DNA of 64,000 nt from Tetrahymena thermophila SB210 (Eukaryota; Ciliophora; Oligohymenophorea; Hymenostomatida; Tetrahymenidae), in contig NW_002476343.1 in assembly GCF_000189635.1 (NCBI RefSeq), positions 68,727 through 132,726 of the forward strand. The letters run 5' to 3'. This document shows, in pieces, positions 11,187 to 62,884 of this stretch (position 1 is its first letter; every line of letters starts with the position of its first letter). A model generated the notes under the pieces. It made no database searches, was not told the DNA's origin, and was given only the letters and a program-made list of their open reading frames with translations. The position numbers were made by a program, and so were the translations under genes.

Positions 11187-13069
11187 TCATTTTTTAGCTA
11201 AACCGATTTGACTACGTTCTATTTTTAATCTTTCTACTGCAATACCAGATTCTTCTTCTTTCTTAATAACGAGTGATATCATATATAAACCAATACTAAT
11301 GGCAACACTTGCTAAAATCCAATTATAAACAGTGTCCTTCTTAATTTCGTAATAGAAACCTCTTCTAGAAAGAGCTTCAACCTTTTATTGATGTTCTCTC
11401 ATTTGTCTTTCACTGATGGGGATCAAAGGAGTGTGTCTGAATTCCTCAATAGGTCTTAATTCCTTTAAGAATTTATGAGGATGTTCTAATTCAATAGCTC
11501 CTGGCATATTGAAGTTAACTGTGACGTGTCTTCTCATTCTTTCCATATAATCAACATTGGTTAAATGGTATTGAGGAATAGCTCCATCACCAAGTTCTTT
11601 CTATTGCTACTCTCTGATCAATGCCTGATTTAGAAAAAGAAAGAAAGATTCATATGTAATTAATCATTGTTTGTAAATGATTAAATTGAGATTTAAAATT
11701 TAATTTGGGATTTTATTTAAATTTGTTTTGTATAAAATTTATAAAAATTAATTTTTTAAATTAATTAATAAATTAGCATGAGTAACTTTAAAAATATGAA
11801 TCTGGGTATACCGNNNNNNNNNNNNNNNNNNNNNNNNNNNNNNNNNNNNNNNNNNNNNNNNNNNNNNNNNNNNNNNNNNNNNNNNNNNNNNNNNNNNNNN
11901 NNNNNNNNNNNNNGAAGTTAAGCGCCTTAAGGCTGGGTTAGTACTAAGGTGGGGGACCGCTTGGGAAGTCCCAGTGTCGACAACCTTTTTTTAAAAATTA
12001 ATTTATTATTTGTAAAGATTAAATTTGTTTGTTTGTATATTATTTTTTTGCAACACTAAAATTTTCTATTTAAAGACATCTCTTAAATAATAGTATTACT
12101 GAAATAGATTGTAGTTACTAAGTTAGTTTTAATTACAAAATAATATTATCAATTTTGTTGTCGGCCATACTAAGGTGAAAACACCGGATCCCATTCGAAC
12201 TCCGAAGTTAAGCGCCTTAAGGCTGGGTTAGTACTAAGGTGGGGGACCGCTTGGGAAGTCCCAGTGTATACCCAGATTCATATTTTTAACTTTGATTAAA
12301 TTGTAATCGATTTTCAACTGTAAATAGAACATTCCATGCAGGATATGCAAATTTATTAATGAAATTTGCAAAATTAAATAAACTGGTATTTATGAATGTA
12401 TTCTACTTCTAAATATATTCTTGAAGCAAATTGATAAATTACCTCGTCTTAAATATCTCCGTACATATCGAGTTCATTATTAAATTTATGTCTTAATGAA
12501 AGTTCGTATGTTTCATAGGGTGTATTTTCGTTTAAGTTAAGTAGAGCCCACAATCTTTAATTTGATGTTTCGTACTCTCTTTTGGCACGCTCAAAAGGAT
12601 CAACAATACCCACGATTTCGGGATCAATATTTGGGATTGGCAAATCATATTTATAGTATTTAACTTAAACTCTTGTTTCATCATCTAATCTTCCTGTAAT
12701 AATTCCTTTGCCTGAAGAGGTAGAAGCGATTGCTTAGCCATCTAAGTAATCATCGCTTTCTTCTGATAATGTCTAATTTGCATTGTAATTCTTAGGCTTT
12801 GATTATATTTCTTGAAGGGTTTCTTTTATGTCTTTTTCATATGTTTGATCTTAACTGATTTCAGTAGCAAATACTACAGACTATTTCTCTTTCTTTGGTC
12901 TCTTTTTCAAAACATTATCTATTTCATCGCTTGAAAGCTCGTATTAATCTGAATATTTAGAGTTAGGAGGCTTTTGAGCTATCTAAACGAATCTATAATG
13001 AGGAGTTTGGCTGCTTAAAGAAGAGCTGATAAGTCTATTTAAAAGAGAAAATTGCTTAATGTTTCTCAT
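11187..13069 (-). CDS. probable mitochondrial inner-membrane protein, ciliate-specific; host gene of intronic 5S rRNA
   Basis: Two exons on the minus strand, 13069-12443 (627 nt) and 11624-11187 (438 nt), join in phase 0 to give 354 residues. The N-terminus (MRNIKQFSLLNRLISSSLSS) is rich in Arg and Ser and lacks acid residues, as expected of a mitochondrial presequence. The middle is charged and hydrophilic. A single membrane helix lies near residues 308-330 (YNWILASVAISIGLYMISLV), followed by a short basic-acidic tail. This layout resembles accessory subunits of respiratory complexes or ATP synthase in ciliates, but I do not recognise a named family. The intron (11625-12442, 818 nt) is much longer than its neighbours' because it contains 5S rRNA sequence on the other strand and a scaffold gap. 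Confidence 0.8.
11788..11811 (+). repeat. left arm of 24-bp inverted repeat around 5S cluster
   Basis: The arm reads ttaaaaatatgaatctgggt followed by atac. Its exact reverse complement lies at 12266-12289. The arm is two bases from the scaffold gap. The pair encloses the whole 5S-containing segment. Confidence 0.85.
11814..11913. other. scaffold gap of 100 N
   Basis: Exactly 100 N, so a placeholder rather than a measured length. It removes the 5' part of the first 5S gene and possibly further 5S repeats. Confidence 0.99.
11914..11985 (+). rRNA. 5S ribosomal RNA, partial (5' part in gap)
   Basis: The visible 72 bases (gaagttaagcgcc ... gtcgacaacc) match the 3' part of the second 5S copy base for base up to the last nine bases. 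They include the internal control region with the A box, the intermediate element and the C box (gggaccgcttgggaagtcc). The 3' end gtcgacaac is complementary to the 5' end gttgtcggc of the other copy, as helix I requires. A run of seven T follows directly, a good Pol III terminator. This copy therefore looks functional apart from the missing sequence in the gap. Confidence 0.95.
11986..11992 (+). terminator. Pol III T-run terminator of first 5S gene
   Basis: A run of T directly after the mature 5S 3' end, the standard RNA polymerase III stop signal. Confidence 0.85.
12157..12267 (+). rRNA. 5S ribosomal RNA, 3'-truncated copy
   Basis: The 5' end gttgtcggccatac and the body, including the internal promoter boxes, are those of a Tetrahymena-type 5S gene. 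After ...cccagtgt the sequence leaves the 5S consensus and enters the 24-bp inverted repeat, so the last eight or nine bases that should pair with the 5' end in helix I are missing. Because the Pol III promoter is internal it may still be transcribed; a TTTTT run lies about 15 bases downstream. A stable 5S product seems unlikely. It is separated from the first copy by 171 bases of AT-rich spacer. Confidence 0.9.
12266..12289 (-). repeat. right arm of 24-bp inverted repeat around 5S cluster
   Basis: Exact reverse complement of 11788-11811. It begins within the last two bases shared with the 5S consensus, replacing the 3' end of the second 5S copy. Confidence 0.85.
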
Positions 13070-35701: not shown

Positions 35702-37846
35702 ATGAGTAAAAAATTGATTGCTTTTATAGCAGTGTTATACTTCTTAGAAGTTGCTTTCGCTGCTGATTGTGCTATTTGTAAATATAGCTCTACTGGTAAT
35801 GACACTGGTGCTGCATGTACCGACTGCCCTGTAGGAGAATGTACAACTGGAACTGGAACTATTGGAGCTGATAAAAGTGTATGTACTACTAAAGCATGTG
35901 CTAAAGGTAGCTATTCTAACTTAGGATTTGATACAAACGGATTAGGAGCTGGATGTAATGCTTGTAATCCAGGTACATCAACTGCAAATGCTTAAACTGT
36001 AGGTGATTCTTAAGATGCTTGCACTGCTAGACCATGCGCTAAGGGTAGCTATTCTGACTCAGGATTTGATACAAACGGATTAGGAGCTGGATGTATTGCT
36101 TGTAATTAAGGTACATCAACTGTAAATGCTTAAACTGTAGGTAATTCTTAAGATATTTGCACTCTTAAAGAATGTGCTAAAGGTAGCTATTCTGACTCAG
36201 GATTTGATACAAATGGATTAGGAGCTGGATGTAATGCTTGTAATCCAGGTACATCAACTGTAAATGCTTAAACTGTAGGTGATTCTTAAGATGCTTGCAC
36301 TGCTAGACCATGCGCTAAGGGTAGCTATTCTGACTCAGGATTTGATACAAACGGATTAGGAGCTGGATGTAATGCTTGTAATCCAGGTACATCAACTGCA
36401 AATGCTTAAACTGTAGGTGATTCTTAAGATGCTTGCACTGCTAGACCATGCGCTAAGGGTAGCTATTCTGACTCAGGATTTGATACAAACGGATTAGGAG
36501 CTGGATGTATTGCTTGTAATTAAGGTACATCAACTGTAAATGCTTAAACTGTAGGTAATTCTTAAGATATTTGCACTCTTAAAGAATGTGCTAAAGGTAG
36601 CTATTCTGACTCAGGATTTGATACAAACGGATTAGGAGCTGGATGTAATGCTTGTAATCTAGGTACATCAACTGCAAATGCTTAAACTGTAGGTGATTCT
36701 TAAGATGCTTGCACTGCTAGACCATGCGCTAAGGGTAGCTATTCTGACTCAGGATTTGATACAAACGGATTAGGAGCTGGATGTATTGCTTGTAATTAAG
36801 GTACATCAACTGTAAATGCTTAAACTGTAGGTAATTCTTAAGATATTTGCACTCTTAAAGAATGTGCTAAAGGTAGCTATTCTGACTCAGGATTTGATAC
36901 AAACGGATTAGGAGCTGGATGTAATGCTTGTAATCCAGGTACATCAACTGCAAATACTTAAACTGTAGGTGATTCTTAAGATGCTTGCACTGCTAGACCA
37001 TGCGCTAAGGGTAGCTATTCTGACTCAGGATTTGATACAAACGGATTAGGAGCTGGATGTATTGCTTGTAATTAAGGTACATCAACTGTAAATGCTTAAA
37101 CTGTAGGTAATTCTTAAGATGTTTGCACTCTTAAAGAATGTGCTAAAGGTAGCTATTCTGACTCAGGATTTGATACAAACGGATTAGGAGCTGGATGTAA
37201 TGCTTGTAATCCAGGTACATCAACTGTAAATGCTTAAACTGTAGGTGATTCTTAAGATGCTTGCACTGCTAGACCATGCGCTAAGGGTAGCTATTCTGAC
37301 TCAGGATTTGATACAAACGGATTAGGAGCTGGATGTAATGCTTGTAATCCAGGTTCATCAACTGTAAATGCTTAAACTGTAGGTGATTCTTAAGATGCTT
37401 GCACTGCTAGACCATGCGCTAAGGGTAGCTATTCTGACTCAGGATTTGATACAAACGGATTAGGAGCTGGATGTAATTCTTGTAATCCAGGTACATCAAC
37501 TGTAAATGCTTAAACTGTAGGTAATTCTTAAGATGTTTGTAATCTTACTCTTAAAGCATGTCCTGCTGGATAATATAGTGATTCATCTTTTGATACAGAT
37601 GGTAAAGGAGCAGGTTGTATTCAATGTGGTGCTAATACTTTTTCTACTCAAGGTGCTACTTCTTGTACTTCTTGCACTAATGATCGTACCTCTCCAGCTG
37701 GATCTACTGATGTCACTGCTTGTGTATGCCCATAAAGTAAATCTGGTCCAACAGATGGTATCAGTGTATGTTCTAATAGTACTACTAGTGGTTAAAAAAT
37801 CACTGTTTTTGTATCACTCATTTTTATTTTAATGTCTGTATTGTGA
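35702..37846 (+). CDS. immobilization antigen (SerH-like), 12-repeat variant
   Basis: One exon gives 714 residues. A signal peptide (MSKKLIAFIAVLYFLEVAFA) comes first, then a short Cys-rich head (CAICKYSSTGNDTG), then 12 tandem repeats of exactly 46 residues (138 bp; unit starts at 35897, 36035 and so on to 37415). Each unit has the form CAKGSYSDSGFDTNGLGAGC followed by xxC and a GTSTxNAQTVG stretch, with four Cys per unit. A non-repeated Cys-rich tail follows, with a hydrophobic C-terminal GPI signal (ITVFVSLIFILMSVL). These proteins form the GPI-anchored surface coat of Tetrahymena and switch with temperature and other conditions. The other three copies in this window have four repeats, so this one is expanded. 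Units alternate between two subtypes (ending ARP or LKE), showing duplication of two-unit blocks. Gln codons in the repeats are nearly all TAA. Confidence 0.93.
35897..37552 (+). repeat. 138-bp coding tandem repeat, 12 units
   Basis: The unit length is exactly 138 bp in all 12 copies. Most units are almost identical at the DNA level and differ at a few codons that define two subtypes: NAC-NPG...DSQDACTARP and IAC-NQG...NSQDICTLKE. The order is A B A A B A B A B A A, then a hybrid last unit. Confidence 0.95.
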
Positions 37847-40557: not shown

Positions 40558-41607
40558 ATGAATAAAAAATTATTTGCTTTTATAGCAATTTTATGCTTCT
40601 TAGAAGTTGCTCTCACTTATAATCCATGTGCTATTTGTACATATAGTCCTACTGGCGATGACGCAAATGGCGCATGTGTCAGCTGCCCTCCTGGAGAATG
40701 TACCAATGCAACTGGAATTGCTGGATCTAGTCCTAGTGTATGTACTACTAAAGCATGTGTTTAAGGATATTATAGCGCAACAGGTTTTGATACAGACGGA
40801 GCTGGAAGTGGATGTGTTGCTTGTACTTCTGGTACATCAACTCCTAGTACTTAAACTGCAGGAATATCATAATCTGTTTGTACTGTTACTCTTAAGGCCT
40901 GTGCTAAAGGTAGTTTTTCTGCCTCAGGATTTGATACAGACGGAGCTGGAACTGGATGTACTCCTTGTACTGCTGGTACATCAACTCCTAATACTTAAAC
41001 TATAGGAACAGCTTAATCTGTTTGCACTCTTAAGGCCTGTGCTAAAGGTAGCTTTTCTGCCTCAGGATTTGATACAGACGGAGCTGGAACTGGATGCACT
41101 GCTTGTACTACCGGAACATCAACTACTAGCACTTAAACTGTAGGAACTGCTTAATCTGTTTGCACTCTTAAGGCCTGTGCTAAAGGTAGTTTTTCTGCCT
41201 CAGGATTTGATACAGATGGAGCTGGAACTGGATGTATTGCTTGTACTGCTGGAACATCAACTCCTAACACTTAAACTGTAGGAACAGGCTAATCTGTTTG
41301 TAGTGTTACTCTTAAGGCATGTGCTGCTGGATCATATAGTGCTTCAGGTTTTGATACAGACGGTAATGGAGCAGGTTGTACTTAATGTGCAGCTAATACT
41401 TACTCTGCTTAAAGTGCTACTTCTTGTATTTCTTGCACTAATAATCGTACCTCTCCTGCTGGATCTACTGCTGTCACTGCTTGCGTATGCCCATCAGGAA
41501 CAACTGGTTCTACAGATGGTGTTAGTACATGTTCTGATAATACTACTAGTGGTTAAAAAATCACTGTTTTTGTATCTCTCATTTTTATTTTAATGTCTTT
41601 ATTCTGA
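40558..41607 (+). CDS. immobilization antigen (SerH-like), 4-repeat copy
   Basis: A single exon of 349 residues. It has a signal peptide (MNKKLFAFIAILCFLEVALT), a Cys-rich head (NPCAICTYSPTGDDANGAC), four repeats of the CAKGSFSASGFDTDGAGTGC type with CTAC and GTSTPNTQTVG segments, then the shared Cys-rich tail (CAANTYSAQSATSC, CTNNRTSPAGSTAVTACVC) and a hydrophobic GPI-signal end (ITVFVSLIFILMSLF). Size and layout are those of classical SerH antigens. It is very close to copy 3, differing at few positions outside the repeats. Repeat lengths are 46 or 48 residues because some units end with VTLKA and others with LKA. The gene lies on the same strand as the other three copies, at no fixed spacing. 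Confidence 0.94.
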
Positions 41608-47292: not shown

Positions 47293-50200
47293 ATGATATA
47301 ATAGAATATCTGTTTCTATGATATAGAAGAAGTAAATATTAATTTTTTTTATTAATAATGTTTAAATTTATTATTCATAAAAAAAGGTTTTAAGCTCTTC
47401 ACTTTAATCGCATTAGACACTCCATATTGATCTGAGGTATAATTAATTTATTATTATTTCTTTTTTTATATTTAATATTCAAGTTATTTACAATATTATT
47501 TTTCTAATTGAAATACTCATCAATATTAATAAGTTTTTTTAATTATTTTAAATTAACTTTCACTTAATTATTATTTTGATTGTTGAATTATTCATTTTTT
47601 TACATTTCATCTTTAATATTCATTTATCTTTCTAACTTAATAATTAAATATATTTTTTTATTTAATATTTAAAAAGTTGGAAAGAAATTGATTATAAAGG
47701 TGCTTCAGCCTTATGTTTCGGTTTATCAAATTGCACTAATCTCTCAAATTTGATACTTGATCTTTAGTAAAAACAGATTTTTTGTTATTGATTGTGACAT
47801 TTTTAAATCTAAAAATGAATTTAAAACGATATAACTAACTTTTTTAATTTATTAAATTATTAGCTTTTTATTTGATTTATTTTTATTATGCTTGTGTTTT
47901 TTTTGTTTATTTAATTCATTTTTTCATTTTCAACTTCTGTTTCTATTATTTATTTAATAATTAATTAATTTCTTATGATTTCATATTCAATTTTTCCTTC
48001 TTACTAACTATTTAACTAAATATTTTTTCTTCAATATTTAAAAGGTCGAATTAAATTGGTGACGAAGGTGCATCAGACTTAGGTTCTGGTTTAGGAAAGT
48101 GCACTAATCTCTCAAATTTGAAATTTGATCTTTAGTAAAATTTTTTATTGGTTTTTTTTAATATAAAAACGAATTCAAATAACATTAATAACTTTTTTAA
48201 TTTATTAGATTTATTATTATTTCTTTTTTTTTCAGCTTGTGTTTTTTTATATTAGTTACTATGTTTGCTTGCTAATTTAACTCATTTTATAATTAATTTT
48301 AATTATTATTTCATATTTTTTCTTGATTTTTTCTTTCTAACTAAATAATAAACTATACAATTTTTCAAATAAATTAACCACCACTTTTTGTATATATTTT
48401 GATTTTTAATTATTATATAAAAGAGCAATACACATAAAAAAAACAAGGGTTAATTTATTTGAAACATCTGTATATTTTTTTCTTCAATATTTAAAAAGTA
48501 AAAATAAAATTGCCGTATTTGGTGCATCTGGCTTAGGTTCTGGTTTAGGAAAGTGCACTAATCTCTTAAATTTGGAGCTTAATCTTGAGTAAAAACAGTT
48601 TATTTGTTTGGATTGTGATACTTTTGAAATTTAAAAATGAATTTAAAACAAAAAAACTAATTATTTTAATTTATTTATTTGTTAATATTTAAAAAGGGAC
48701 AATTAAATTGGCGATACATACATACATACATACTCGCACATGGTTACATGCACTCGGGATAGGGGCCCTATATATAATTACTTATACATTATTATTATAC
48801 GTATACCAATTTATTTATATATAATTGTGGGTAATATACTAGAAGGGAAGGGTCACCTACACCCTAATGGCATTTCTACTAATCTTCCATGATTTGACTA
48901 CGCATTATGCTCGCTTCCCATTTGTATTCCAGATCTTCTGTTCAGAATGGGGCCTCCTCTTTACCTCCTATCAGATTTGGCCCTTCCCTCCTACCAAGGA
49001 GACCGCTGGTAACATTCACATTTTTACATGGAATTTTTCGAAATAAAGGGGGCGGTATAGGATTCGAACCCCCGATATCACTGCTAAGACCCTCCGACTC
49101 GCCCACTCGAGTCGCTTAGCCCTTCTTTTAAATTGGCGATTAAGGTGCATCAGATTTAGGCTCTGGTTTAGGATATTGCACTAATCTCTCAAATTTAACA
49201 CTAAAATTAAGGTAAAAACAATTTATTTATTTTAGACTGTGATATTTTTGAATATAAAAATGAATTTAAAGCAAAAAAACTAACTAAATCTTTCATTTAT
49301 TTATTAGTTTTTTATTTGATTTATTTTTCTTTTTATGTTAATTTTTCTTGTGTGTTTTTTATTTCTTTGTTAATCTAACTGAATTCTTATAATTTCATAT
49401 TTTTTCTTCATTTTTTCCTTCTAACTAACTAATTAACTAATTAAATATTTTTTTTTCAATATTTAAAAAGTGGGAATGAAATTGGTTCAGAAGGTGCATC
49501 AGGCTTATGTTATGGTTTAGGAAAGTGCACTAATCTCTCAAATTTGGTACTTTATCTAGAGTAAAAACTGTTTATTTGTTTTAGATTGGGATATTTTGAA
49601 ATTTATTTATAAGTTTTTCATTTGATTTAATTTTCCTTGTTTTTATTCTACTTTTATTTTTTTATTTGTTTGTTTGTTCGTTAATTTAATTCATTTTTTA
49701 ATTTTCAACTTTGGTAGATGTAAATTTTTAATTAATCTCTTATGATTTCATAGTAAACTAAATATTTTCTCTTCAATATTTAAAAAGGGAGAATCAAATT
49801 GGTGATGAAGGTATATCAGACTTAGGTTCTGGTTTAGGAAAATGCACTAATCTCTCATATTTGACACTTTATCTAAGGTAAACACTTTTATTTGTTTTTG
49901 ATTGTGATATTTTTGAATATAAAAATGATTTTAAAGCAATATTACTAATTACCTCTTTTAATTTTTTTATTAGCTTTTTATTTTATTTATTTTTCTTTTT
50001 TTTTTGCTCTGTTTGTGTTATTTATTTATTCATTTCTTTATTTTTTGTTAATTAACTTCTTTTTCATTTTCAATCTTTTCTTTATAGTTAATTAATTAAC
50101 TCATTTCTTATTATTTCATATTTTTCTTTATTTTTTCCTTCGAACTAATTAAATATTTTTTTCTCTTCAATTTTTATAAAGGTTTAATTAAATTTGTGCA

Positions 50201-52674
50201 GTTGGTACATCAGGCTTAGGTTCTGGTTTAGGAAAGTGTAGTAATCTCTAAAGTTTAAAACTTGATCTTTAGTAAAAAGAATTTTATTTGTTTTGGATTA
50301 TGATATTTTTGAATATAAAAGTGAATTTAAAGCAACTCTTTTAATTAATTTATTAGATTTATATTTCATTTATTTTTATTTTTTTTATTTTATTTGTGTT
50401 TTTTTTTATTTATTTATTTCTTTGTTTTTTTGTTAATTTAACTCATTTTTTCATATTGAATTTTTGATTATATTTTAATTAATTAATTTCTTATTATTTC
50501 ATATTTTTTCCTTCTAATTAACTAATTAATATTTTATATTGAATATTTAAAAAGGGATAATTAAATCAATGGTGAAGGTGCATCGGGCTTAGGTTTTGGT
50601 TTAGGAAAGTGCACTAATCTCTCAAATTTGACACTTTATTTTGAGTAAAAACAGCTTATTTACTTTGGATTGTGATATTTTTGAAAATAAAAATGAATTT
50701 AAAACAATATAACTAACTCTTTCATTAATCTAAAAGACTAACTAGTTAACCTATTATTTCTTCAATATTTAAAAAGTAAATATTAAATTGATGTAATTGG
50801 CTAATTAGGCTTAGGTTTTGGTTTAGGAAAGTGCACTAATCTCACAAATTTGACATTTAATTTTAAGTAAATACAGTATATTTGTTTTGGATTACGATGT
50901 TTTTGAGTATAAAACTCTTTAATATAATTAACTCTTTTTATTTATTTATATTTTTATTTACTTTTTATTTTATTTATTTTCCTTTTATTATTCTTATCTA
51001 TTTTTAATTTTTCTTACTTTGTTTGTAAATTTATCTTTTTTTTTGATTTTCAAATTTGAATTAGCAATTTTTTTTTCTTCAATATATTAAAAGGCAACTT
51101 TATATTGATAGTTAAGCTGCATCATGCTTAGGTTCTGATTTAGCAAAAAGTACTAATCTTACAAATTTGGCACTTAATCTTGAGTAAAAACAGTTTATTT
51201 GTTTTGAATTGTGATATTTTCGAATATAAAAATGAATTTAAAATAATATAACTCACTCCTTTATAGATTTATTTTATTTATTTATTCTATTTGTAATTTT
51301 TTTTGTTTATTTTTTGTTAATTTAGTTTCATTTTAATTTATTTATTTATTTTTATCATTTCAAATTTTTCTTCATTTATTTTTTCATTTTATATTTTTTC
51401 TTCAATATTTCAAAAGAAAAAAAGAAATTGGTGATACAAGTATATAAATATTAGGTTTTGTTTTATCAAACTTGACAAATCTCTCAAATTTGACACTTAA
51501 TCTTAGGTAAAAACATTTTATTTGTATTTTTGAAAACTATATAAATATATCTTTTAAATATTTGCTATTTATTTTATTTATTTTTCTTTTTTTATTCTGC
51601 TTTTGTTAATTTATATTTTTTTGTTTGGTTAAAGGGGGGGNNNNNNNNNNNNNNNNNNNNNNNNNNNNNNNNNNNNNNNNNNNNNNNNNNNNNNNNNNNN
51701 NNNNNNNNNNNNNNNNNNNNNNNNNNNNNNNNNNNNNNNNCCCCCCCCCCCCTTAAATTAACTCATTATTGCAATTCTAATTTTTTATTATTAATTAATT
51801 TCTTATTATTTCATATTTTGCTTCATTTTTTAACTAACTAATTAAGTATATTTTTTTTCTTCAATATTTAATAAGTAAAAATTAAATTCGTGATGAAGGT
51901 GTATATATCTTAGGTTCTGATTTAAGAAAGTGCACTAATCTCTCAAATTTGACACTTAACCTTGGGTAAAAACAGTTTATTTGTTTTTTAATTGTATTTT
52001 TTTTGAAAATAAAAATAATCTAAAACAATATAACTAACTCTAATAATTTATTGATTAGATTTTTATTTGATTTATTCTTCTTTTATTTTTTATACTGCTT
52101 GTGTTATTTATTTGTTTGTTTCTTTGTTTAATTGTTAATTTAACTCATTTTTTATTCAACAATTAATGAATACATTTCTTGTTATTTCATATTTTTTCTT
52201 CATTTTAACCTTCTAACTAGCTAATTAACTAAATCTTTTTTCTTCAATATTTAAAAAGGTTTAATTATTTAAATTACTAAGGTGCATTAGATTTATGCTA
52301 TAATTTAGGATAGTTGACTAAACTCTCAAATTTGACACTTGATCTTTTGTAATAAAAACAGTTTATTTTTTTTGTGTTATGATATTTTAGAATATAAAAA
52401 TAAATTTAAACAACACAACTAACCTTTTAATTTATAGGCTTTTTATTTGATTTCTTTTTCTTTTTTTTTATTCTGATAATTTTTTATTTATTTACTGATT
52501 TAAAATATAAATTTTATTTAAAAATTTTATTCTCTTTATTTTTTTTATTAATTTACAATAATTTATATTAAAAGCAAAAACAAAATAACGAGATCAAACA
52601 ATTTGAAATTAAAGTGTCTGAAATCAAAAAGATTAGTTATCTTAAAAATGTATATTGATGATAAGAGTTGGTGA
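47293..52674 (+). CDS. leucine-rich-repeat (ribonuclease-inhibitor-like) protein, one LRR per exon; one exon split by SINE-like element
   Basis: I assemble 16 exons: 47293-47331, 47387-47436, then 13 of exactly 90 nt (47677-47766, 48045-48134, 48499-48588, 48697-48715 plus 49141-49211, 49471-49560, 49788-49877, 50182-50271, 50555-50644, 50777-50866, 51094-51183, 51417-51506, 51876-51965, 52259-52348), and 52575-52674 ending at TGA. Each 90-nt exon has an A-rich acceptor (ttcaatatttaaaaag), a GTAA donor, phase 2 at both ends, and encodes one 30-residue LRR: NQIGDEGASGLGSGLGKC then TNLSNLTLDL. The last exon encodes CLKSKRLVILKMYI, a typical cap. Without the insertion the product is 452 residues. 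LRRs bind proteins. The insertion puts a TGA (48890-48892) in frame, so the gene is broken unless that exon is skipped. More exons may lie in the gap. The first two exons are the least certain. Confidence 0.75.
48703..48715 (+). repeat. target-site duplication, left copy
   Basis: ttaaattggcgat, identical to 49128-49140. The adjoining bases differ on both sides (a/t before, a/t after), so the duplication is exactly 13 bp. Confidence 0.9.
48716..49127 (-). mobile_element. tRNA-derived SINE-like retroposon
   Basis: This 412-bp insert is much richer in G+C than anything around it and is flanked by a perfect 13-bp direct repeat. On the minus strand it starts (at 49127) with a tRNA-like head: AGGGCTAAGCGACTCGAGTG, a possible A-box region with a perfect GACTCG/CGAGTC stem, then GGGGTTCGAATCC, which contains the perfect Pol III B box GGTTCGAATCC (49060-49070). 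A tRNA-unrelated body follows, and the far end is a simple-repeat tail, (TATG)n, next to the other target-site copy. Head, body, short-repeat tail and target-site duplication are the hallmarks of a SINE moved by a LINE reverse transcriptase. No protein is encoded. The tRNA parent looks class-II-like (Leu or Ser) but is too diverged to name. Confidence 0.85.
49048..49123 (-). ncRNA. tRNA-like head of the SINE with Pol III promoter boxes
   Basis: The B box and T-loop GTTCGAATC are perfect, but the T stem pairs only partly (GGGGG against CCTAT) and the acceptor ends do not pair, so it is not a functional tRNA. The D-arm-like hairpin GACTCG-AGTGGG-CGAGTC is strong. Transcription would run leftward, opposite to the LRR gene. 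Confidence 0.7.
49128..49140 (+). repeat. target-site duplication, right copy
   Basis: ttaaattggcgat, the second copy of the 13-bp duplication. The LRR exon resumes at 49141. Confidence 0.9.
51641..51740. other. scaffold gap of 100 N between G and C homopolymers
   Basis: Exactly 100 N, preceded by a G run and followed by twelve C. It lies within an intron of the LRR gene and may hide further LRR exons. Confidence 0.99.
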
Positions 52675-55555: not shown

Positions 55556-56617
55556 ATGAATAAAAAACTATTTGCTTTTATAGCAATTTTATGCTTCTTA
55601 GAAGTTGCTCTCACTTATAATCCATGTGAAATTTGTAAATATAGCCCTACTGGCGATGACGCAAATGGCGCATGTGTCAGCTGCCCTCCTGGAGAATGTA
55701 CCACTGCAACTGGAATTGCTGGATCTAGTCCTAGTGTATGTACTACTAAAGCATGTGTTTAAGGATATTATAGCGCAACAGGTTTTGATACAGACGGAGC
55801 TGGAAGTGGATGTGTTGCTTGTACTTCTGGTACATCAACTCCTAGTACTTAAACTGTAGGAATATCATAATCTGTTTGTACTGTTACTCTTAAGGCATGT
55901 GCTAAAGGTAGTTTTTCTGCCTCAGGATTCGATACAGATGGAGCTGGAGCTGGATGTACTGCTTGTACTGCTGGTACATCAACTCCTAATACTTAAACTG
56001 TAGGAACAGCTTAATCTATTTGTACTGTTACTCTTAAGGCATGTGCTAAAGGTAGTTTTTCTGCCTCAGGATTTGATACAGACGGAGCTGGAACTGGATG
56101 TACTGCTTGTACTGCTGGTACATCAACTCCTAATACTTAAACTGCAGGAACAGCTTAATCCATTTGTACTGTTACTCTTAAGGCATGTGCTAAAGGTAGC
56201 TTTTCTGCCTCAGGATTTGATACAGACGGAGCTGGAACTGGATGTACAGCTTGTACTGCTGGAACATCAACTCCTAACACTTAAACTGTAGGAACAGGCT
56301 AATCTGTTTGTAGTGTTACTCTTAAGGCATGTGCTGCTGGATCATATAGTGCTTCAGGTTTAGATACAGACGGTAATGGAGCAGGTTGTACTCAATGTGC
56401 AGCTAATACTTACTCTGCTTAAAGTGCTACTTCTTGTACTTCTTGCACTAATAATCGTACCTCTCCAGCTGGATCTACTGCTGTCACTGCTTGCGTATGT
56501 CCATCAGGAACAACTGGTTCTACAGATGGTGTTAGTACATGTTCTGATAATACTACTAGTGGTTAAAAAATCACTGTTTTTGTATCTCTCATTTTTATTT
56601 TAATGTCTTTATTCTGA
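55556..56617 (+). CDS. immobilization antigen (SerH-like), 4-repeat copy
   Basis: A single exon of 353 residues. The layout is as in copy 2: signal peptide MNKKLFAFIAILCFLEVALT, head NPCEICKYSPTGDDANGAC, four GFDTDGAG repeats, the shared Cys-rich tail and a GPI-signal end. All four repeats here end with VTLKA and are 48 residues long, unlike copy 2 where two end with LKA, which accounts for the four extra residues. The head differs from copy 2 at a few positions (CEIC for CAIC, TTATG for TNATG). The remaining tail is nearly identical, so copies 2 and 3 are recent duplicates or have been kept alike by gene conversion. Confidence 0.94.
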
Positions 56618-61849: not shown

Positions 61850-62884
61850 ATGAATAAAAAACTTTTTGCTTTCATAGCAGTGTTATGCTTCTTAGATGTT
61901 GCTTTCGCTGATCCATGTGCTGCCTGTACCTACAGCGGTACTGGTGATGACACAGGTGGTGCATGTACCCAATGCCCTGCTGGATAATGTACACCTGGAA
62001 CTGGAACTACTGGAGGCAGTGATACTGTATGTACCGCTAGACCATGTTCATAAGGAAAATTTAGTTCAACAGGTTTTGATACAGATGGAGCTGGAGCTGG
62101 ATGTACTGCTTGTACTGCAGGTACAACAACTCCTGGTGCTTAAACTGTAGGAACAGCTTAATCTGTTTGCACTCTTAAGGCCTGTGCTTAAGGTAGTTTT
62201 TCTGCCTCAGGATTTGATACAGACGGAACTGGAAATGGATGTACTGCTTGTACTGCCGGAACATCAACTCCTAGCACTTAAACTGTAGGAACAGCTTAAT
62301 CTGTTTGCACTCTTAAGGCTTGTGCTAAAGGTAGCTTTTCTGCCTCAGGATTTGATACAGACGGAGCTGGAAATGGATGTACTGCTTGTACTGCCGGTAC
62401 AACAACTCCTAATACTTAAACTGTAGGAACAGCTTAATCTGTTTGCACTCTTAAGGCTTGTGCTAAAGGTAGCTATTCTGCCTCAGGATTTGACACAGAC
62501 GGAGCTGGAACTGGATGCACTGCTTGTACTGCCGGAACATCAACTCCTAGCACTTAAACTGTAGGAACAGCTTAATCTGTTTGTACTCTTAAGGCTTGTG
62601 CTGCCGGATCATATAGCGCTTCAGGTTTTGATACAGACGGTAATGGAGCAGGTTGTACTCAATGTGCTGCTAATACTTACTCTGCTTAAAGTGCTACTTC
62701 TTGTACTTCTTGCACTAATAATCGTACCTCTCCAGCTGGATCTACTGCTGTCACTGCTTGCGTATGCCCATCAGGAACAACTGGTCCTACAGATGGTGTC
62801 AGTACATGTTCTGATAATACTACTAGTGGTTAAAAAATCACTGTTTTTGTATCACTCATTTTTATTTTAATGTCTTTATTCTGA
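61850..62884 (+). CDS. immobilization antigen (SerH-like), 4-repeat copy
   Basis: A single exon of 344 residues: signal peptide MNKKLFAFIAVLCFLDVAFA, head DPCAACTYSGTGDDTGGAC, four repeats of the CAKGSFSASGFDTDGAGNGC type, then the same Cys-rich tail and hydrophobic GPI-signal end as the other copies. The tail is nearly identical to copies 2 and 3, while the head and first repeat (CSQGKFSSTGFDTDG, TARPC) are closer in style to copy 1. That mixture suggests exchange between paralogues. All four repeats end with LKA and are 46 residues long. As in the other copies, the variable head and repeats are what antibodies against serotypes are known to see. Confidence 0.94.

Follow-up and report, generated by a model that had tools for sequence, protein, structure and literature searches.

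A SINE-like insert between 13-bp direct repeats in an LRR exon of Tetrahymena thermophila

Introduction

tRNA-derived SINEs with short tandem-repeat tails are a general class, and the length limit of SINEs lies at about 600 bp. Among the described systems, the tRNA-related SINEs of Aspergillus are reported, in the abstract of that work, with duplications of 4-14 bp. In ciliates, putative SINE consensus sequences have been described in Paramecium tetraurelia, where they were defined by copy number and a lack of coding potential, and where 0.09 of 0.12 Mb lies outside the macronucleus-destined compartment (PMC5405496, in part); the terms "tRNA" and "target site duplication" are absent from the main text of that paper. 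The repeat annotation of Cryptocaryon includes 0.10% SINEs (PMC8790277, in part). Given these two reports, as far as the cited portions go, a new SINE-like sequence would not be the first from a ciliate. For Tetrahymena itself, no described SINE was found in the literature searched, subscription papers such as the original REP paper lying outside its scope. The word "SINE" is absent from the main text of a study of ten Tetrahymena species (PMC6564038) and, by word count, from a paper on Paramecium coding-region internal eliminated sequences (IESs) (PMC8354472) and one on Loxodes (PMC11441545), and the text of the T. thermophila germline paper (PMC5182062) likewise lacks both "SINE" and "SINEs".

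Retroposition into a particular kind of Tetrahymena gene has been described for the non-LTR LINE known as Tt.REP or Tm.REP, an autonomous element with two open reading frames that is found in and beside units of LRR genes, favours their introns, and carries a 54-bp tail matching LRR units (PMC6564038, in part). These genes form a class defined in Tetrahymena by 90-bp exons between phase-2 introns (Xiong et al., 2019; PMC6564038, in part). LINE machinery landing in LRR genes can be regarded as documented, because 76% of Tt.REP co-localise with LRR units, and 169 copies of the REP tail persist in the T. thermophila macronucleus (PMC6564038, in part). In the germline of this species, retrotransposons have been reported as infrequent and non-LTR elements make up 4.75% of the repeated DNA; elimination affects 95% of the putative transposon sequence, with about 1 Mb staying in the macronucleus (PMC5182062, in part), while in Loxodes thousands of LINE-related sequences are kept in both nuclei (PMC11441545, in part).

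Here, an insert in a 64-kb window of T. thermophila DNA (the whole stretch that was analysed) is compared with these systems. The original prediction had proposed that a recent SINE-like retroposon lies inside a coding exon of this window, in DNA where a recognisable element of this kind would be unexpected.

Results

The interrupted exon and its restoration

The host gene carries an array of LRR exons (Table 1), 12 of which are intact, all of them exactly 90 nt long, with AG/GT borders, no in-frame TGA and an open frame in the ciliate code, while exon four is interrupted. The introns are in phase 2 and measure 108-369 nt, the longest including a 100-N gap. Since all 12 intact exons and the restored exon described below are 90 nt long and lie between phase-2 introns, the host can be assigned to the Tetrahymena class of 90-bp-exon LRR genes. 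Relatives of the LRR protein were found at 2 loci in a viral contig collection, at 34-43% identity. Two introns of the array are short, 48589-48696 (108 nt) and 50645-50776 (132 nt) as against 227-369 nt for the other ten, and the 108-nt intron adjoins the interrupted exon on its 5' side. The gapped stretch of intron at 51634-51752 is edged by seven G and twelve C, and resembles an assembly or sequencing artefact.

The insert of 412 bp lies between two direct copies of TTAAATTGGCGAT, which are identical at 13 of 13 positions. When the insert and one repeat copy are removed, a net gain of 425 bp is reversed and pieces of 19 and 71 nt join into a 90-nt exon, which is open, has AG before it and GT after it, and reads DNQIGDQGASDLGSGLGYCTNLSNLTLKL, a normal LRR repeat. 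In addition, when 7 of the 12 sister exons were combined into a profile, its alignment with the right-hand piece began at 49128, where the second repeat copy starts (envelope from 49123). The boundaries at 48716 and 49127 are thus borne out by both the repeat copies and the exon profile, and the predicted exon length of 19 + 71 = 90 nt, equal to that of all 12 sisters, and restored LRR frame were likewise confirmed.

Table 1. Features of the insert and its host exon, with positions in the window
Feature	Position	Strand	Basis
LRR exon array, 13 exons of which 12 are intact (90 nt) and one is interrupted	47677..52348	+	
5' piece (19 nt) of the interrupted 90-nt LRR exon	48697..48715	+	AG acceptor just before; sister-exon homology
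Target-site duplication copy 1, TTAAATTGGCGAT, tail side of element	48703..48715	+	Exact match to copy 2
SINE-like insert, 412 bp	48716..49127	-	Boundaries from 13-bp repeat and exon homology
(GTAT)n tail, 4.5 units inside insert, 5 counting AT of the duplication	48716..48733	-	
Non-coding body	48734..49047	-	No protein-family match
tRNA 3'-part-like stretch, element nt 54-80	49048..49074	-	23/27 identical to phage tRNA-Val
B box GGTTCGAATCC, element nt 58-68	49060..49070	-	Motif scan and shuffles
Weak candidate for an A box, GACTCGAGTGG, at element nt 15-25 (2 mismatches; 43 nt 5' of the B box; not significant)	49103..49113	-	
Target-site duplication copy 2, head side	49128..49140	+	Exact match to copy 1
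3' piece (71 nt) of the interrupted exon, then GT donor at 49212	49141..49211	+	Exon profile; splice border

An origin of the 13-bp repeat from two homologous exons was ruled out, since the region concerned (exon nt 7-19) is identical in 0 of the 66 pairs that can be formed among the 12 sister exons; none of these exons carries the 13-mer TTAAATTGGCGAT. Across the whole window, 37 exact direct repeats of at least 13 bp occur at a spacing of 400-450 bp, 28 of them with at least 4 G/C, and 27 of these 28 fall by their coordinates in tandem arrays with a period of 138 or 144 bp, the remaining one being the pair that flanks the insert. The tandem arrays themselves form four related stretches in long open frames (35895-37539, 40781-41300, 55779-56335 and 62070-62602), with several cysteine codons per unit as judged by eye and a GC content well above that of the surroundings. 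No Pfam match was found in the one plus-strand frame scanned over each stretch; the arrays resemble ciliate surface-antigen repeats.

As predicted, the insert is relatively GC-rich (0.42 as against 0.19 in the 5-kb flanks). Such a difference would also be expected if the insert were an assembly chimera, a contaminant or filler DNA from the repair of a break, and two gaps of 100 N are present in the assembly, one of them inside the LRR gene with poly-G/poly-C edges. A chance join, however, would not produce a perfect 13-bp duplication whose register follows that of exon nt 7-19, together with a tail that merges into it, and similarity of the insert to phage and plasmid records (411 of 412 bp as query) does not exceed 32-34 nt, which argues against a contaminant, and we consider an origin of this kind most improbable.

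Structure of the insert

The sense strand of the element is the minus strand, so that the insert is antisense to the LRR gene, and the original prediction's claim that the direction is fixed was upheld. It begins AAGAAGGGCTAAG and carries a perfect B box close to its 5' end, placed as in the heads of SINEs. The strict B-box motif GGTTCGANTCC, counted on either strand and at any position, was obtained in 8 of 20,000 dinucleotide shuffles of the insert (0.0004), and the sequence suggests a candidate Pol III promoter element. An A box did not stand out against shuffles: among candidates at the right spacing, the best shows 2 mismatches, and 25% of shuffles contain a candidate with no more than 1 mismatch (P 0.25). 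At the other end, the tail is the only TATG-type run of at least 4 units in the window, in agreement with the (TATG)n tail of the original prediction, and it shares the bases AT with the duplication, such that tail and target-site duplication merge. A TTTT terminator is missing from the element, a result that is uninformative (shuffle P 0.67), and RNA folding is ordinary, with z -0.56 for 411 of the 412 nt and z -0.70 for the head.

In size and in coding content the insert agrees with a SINE, since it is 412 bp long and none of its six frames gives a Pfam match below E 0.3 (one match was obtained at E 0.35). Inverted stretches common to both ends, with starts no more than 25 nt from each end, reach 5 nt at most, and for want of terminal inverted repeats an identity as a DNA transposon or MITE was rejected. 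Like the tRNA-derived SINEs, the insert combines small size, a B box near the 5' end, a non-coding body, a simple-repeat tail and a duplication, here of 13 bp. Like the putative SINEs of Paramecium tetraurelia, with which it can be compared by description only, it is a candidate for a short non-coding retroelement in a ciliate (PMC5405496, in part).

The ends of the insert also bear on a second class of ciliate sequence, the coding-region IESs, of which six in T. thermophila have TTAA direct repeats (PMC5182062, in part). The insert is likewise short and lies in a coding exon, its 13-bp repeat starts with TTAA, and cutting between both TTAA also restores the exon, which is what would be seen if an IES normally excised at this tetranucleotide had here been retained or if the sequence came from germline DNA. 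However, the inner terminal inverted repeat 5'-CACTTT-3' of the known coding-region IESs (PMC5182062, in part) is missing, the corresponding positions being occupied by ATTGGC and, at the other end and on the other strand, AAGAAG; the duplication is 13 bp as opposed to 4, and neither its length nor a tetranucleotide tail would be expected of an IES. Identity with a coding-region IES was set aside because the CACTTT motif is missing, and we regard this origin as highly improbable.

Similarity of the head to tRNA

The original prediction had described the head as tRNA-like, and this was partly supported, through its 3' part. The only phage match to the insert, itself weak (E 0.4, in two records of one phage), overlaps a tRNA-Val gene, and element nt 54-80 agree with that tRNA at 23 of 27 positions, in its T arm and 3' acceptor strand, with the B box (0.0004 of shuffles, as above) inside this stretch. 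When the 5' half of the head was aligned with the same tRNA, the alignment was no better than those of shuffles (P 0.19), and of the 21 positions in a cloverleaf anchored on the B box, 13 are paired, compared with a mean of 13.5 in shuffles (P 0.76), so that the cloverleaf is not significant either. The Rfam tRNA model gave no match to the insert at E<=10. ARAGORN reported no tRNA in the window and none on the insert in three of four settings, the normal settings included; with thresholds cut to 60%, one intron-bearing candidate appeared on the complement strand of the insert and was set aside as implausible. Unlike tRNA-derived SINEs, the insert has a weak cloverleaf and no significant A box. 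At the level of sequence, these comparisons support a Pol III-type B box with a putative remnant of a tRNA 3' part, while a whole tRNA head is without support.

Copies of the insert and genomic context

No second copy of the insert was found within the window when 411 of its 412 bp were used as query, the next best match being an AT-rich stretch of 60 nt at 46.5 kb (E 0.02). Pattern scans gave 0 matches in viral contigs (4 patterns) and genome contigs (2 patterns); the collections scanned hold viruses, plasmids and prokaryotes, and zeros there say little about Tetrahymena. The 3'-terminal 85 nt of the element are without a counterpart in the LRR array of the window, and the array matches the insert only in AT-rich pieces of 12-17 nt at element nt 302-325.

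A single copy in the window is what would be seen if a cellular non-coding RNA had been retrocopied once, or if the insert were the 3' end of a 5'-truncated LINE, in either case by target-primed insertion and with no SINE family behind it. The same anatomy would be expected from such an event, and Rfam assigns the insert to no known RNA family at gathering threshold, two matches at E 1.9 and 9.1 being dismissed as chance, far below gathering scores. On the other side, the B box is placed as in a SINE head, and no remnant of a reverse transcriptase, endonuclease or other protein was detected below E 0.3 in any of the six frames, a search that a 3' untranslated fragment alone would escape. We consider a one-off event of this kind unlikely, although it retains some weight.

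The window is AT-rich, with long open frames in the ciliate code and a 5S rRNA match, and its genes include those for a pirin, an NAD-binding protein and a TPR protein; a match to the SerH surface antigen is sub-threshold (E 0.00015, 21.2 bits as against a cut-off of 22). No transposon domain was found in the 20 open frames scanned out of 39 listed, and the window has no telomere repeat and no exact chromosome-breakage site (three sites with two mismatches), which is compatible with macronucleus-destined DNA but no proof of it. Two 5S rRNA copies lie within 11788-12289, one of which is partly lost in the 100-N gap at 11814-11913, its end reading GTGTCGACAACCTTTTTTT. The second copy (12157 on) departs after GTGT, and the 24 nt at 12266-12289 are the exact reverse complement of 11788-11811, such that this locus represents either an inverted duplication or a misassembly.

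Discussion

The best explanation of these observations, to which we assign a probability of roughly 0.7, is LINE-driven, SINE-like retroposition of a short B-box transcript with a (GUAU)n tail. That the insert is a retroposon in a coding exon, as first proposed, is well supported by the exact 13-bp duplication, the 412-bp insert, the tail and the lack of inverted ends, and that it is a SINE is probable. With one copy known, the sequence makes it probably the first copy seen of an undescribed Tetrahymena SINE.

In the mechanism proposed, a LINE (non-LTR retrotransposon) would supply the reverse transcriptase and endonuclease, and the template copied into the genome would be a short Pol III-type transcript that contains an internal B box and a non-coding body and ends in a 3' (GUAU)n tail. 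The endonuclease would nick the top strand of the LRR exon at GGCGAT^TAAGG, and the terminal AT of the freed GGCGAT-3' end may then pair with AU of the RNA tail and prime the first strand. A staggered second nick would give the 13-bp duplication. Because the tail adjoins the left duplication, the first cDNA strand would be the plus strand. Target-primed reverse transcription fits the insert because a long staggered duplication, a simple-repeat tail on one side, missing inverted ends and an internal B box occur together.

As to the partner LINE, REP is a possible source of the machinery, given that it occurs at sites like that of the insert, in and beside 90-bp-exon LRR units (PMC6564038, in part). 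The insert sits in an exon, as opposed to the introns favoured by REP, and a partnership with REP is unsupported by sequence, since the REP tail matches LRR units and no match to the LRR array of the window was obtained with the final 85 nt of the insert.

Two expectations attached to the insert were only partly upheld. The original prediction had called the insertion recent; the two duplication copies have indeed 0 mismatches in 13 positions, but this allows up to about 21% divergence at the 95% level, so that the age is weakly bounded. It had also called retention in macronuclear DNA unexpected. A retained element is less unexpected than it had seemed, because about 1 Mb of transposon DNA (PMC5182062, in part), the 169 REP tails (PMC6564038, in part) and the Loxodes LINEs (PMC11441545, in part) all persist.

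If the exon were kept with the insert, the frame would shift and a TGA would be in frame at 48890 after 64 codons, while the other twelve exons, joined without the disrupted one, form one open frame. Because the exon is 90 nt long between phase-2 introns, exon skipping would preserve the frame, and the LRR gene may tolerate the insertion in this way. A wider possibility, which we put forward tentatively and consider somewhat doubtful, is that an undescribed LINE-dependent SINE family lands in LRR arrays and survives in macronucleus-destined DNA, the arrays serving as a safe harbour for retroposons that are as a rule purged by genome editing, since any 90-nt phase-2 exon could be skipped, or lost by unequal crossing-over, with no break of frame.

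For the biology of Tetrahymena, a precisely bounded SINE-like insertion in an exon of a fast-evolving LRR gene would mark LINE activity. It would test how such elements escape elimination, and whether modular arrays of 90-bp exons tolerate inserts by exon skipping.
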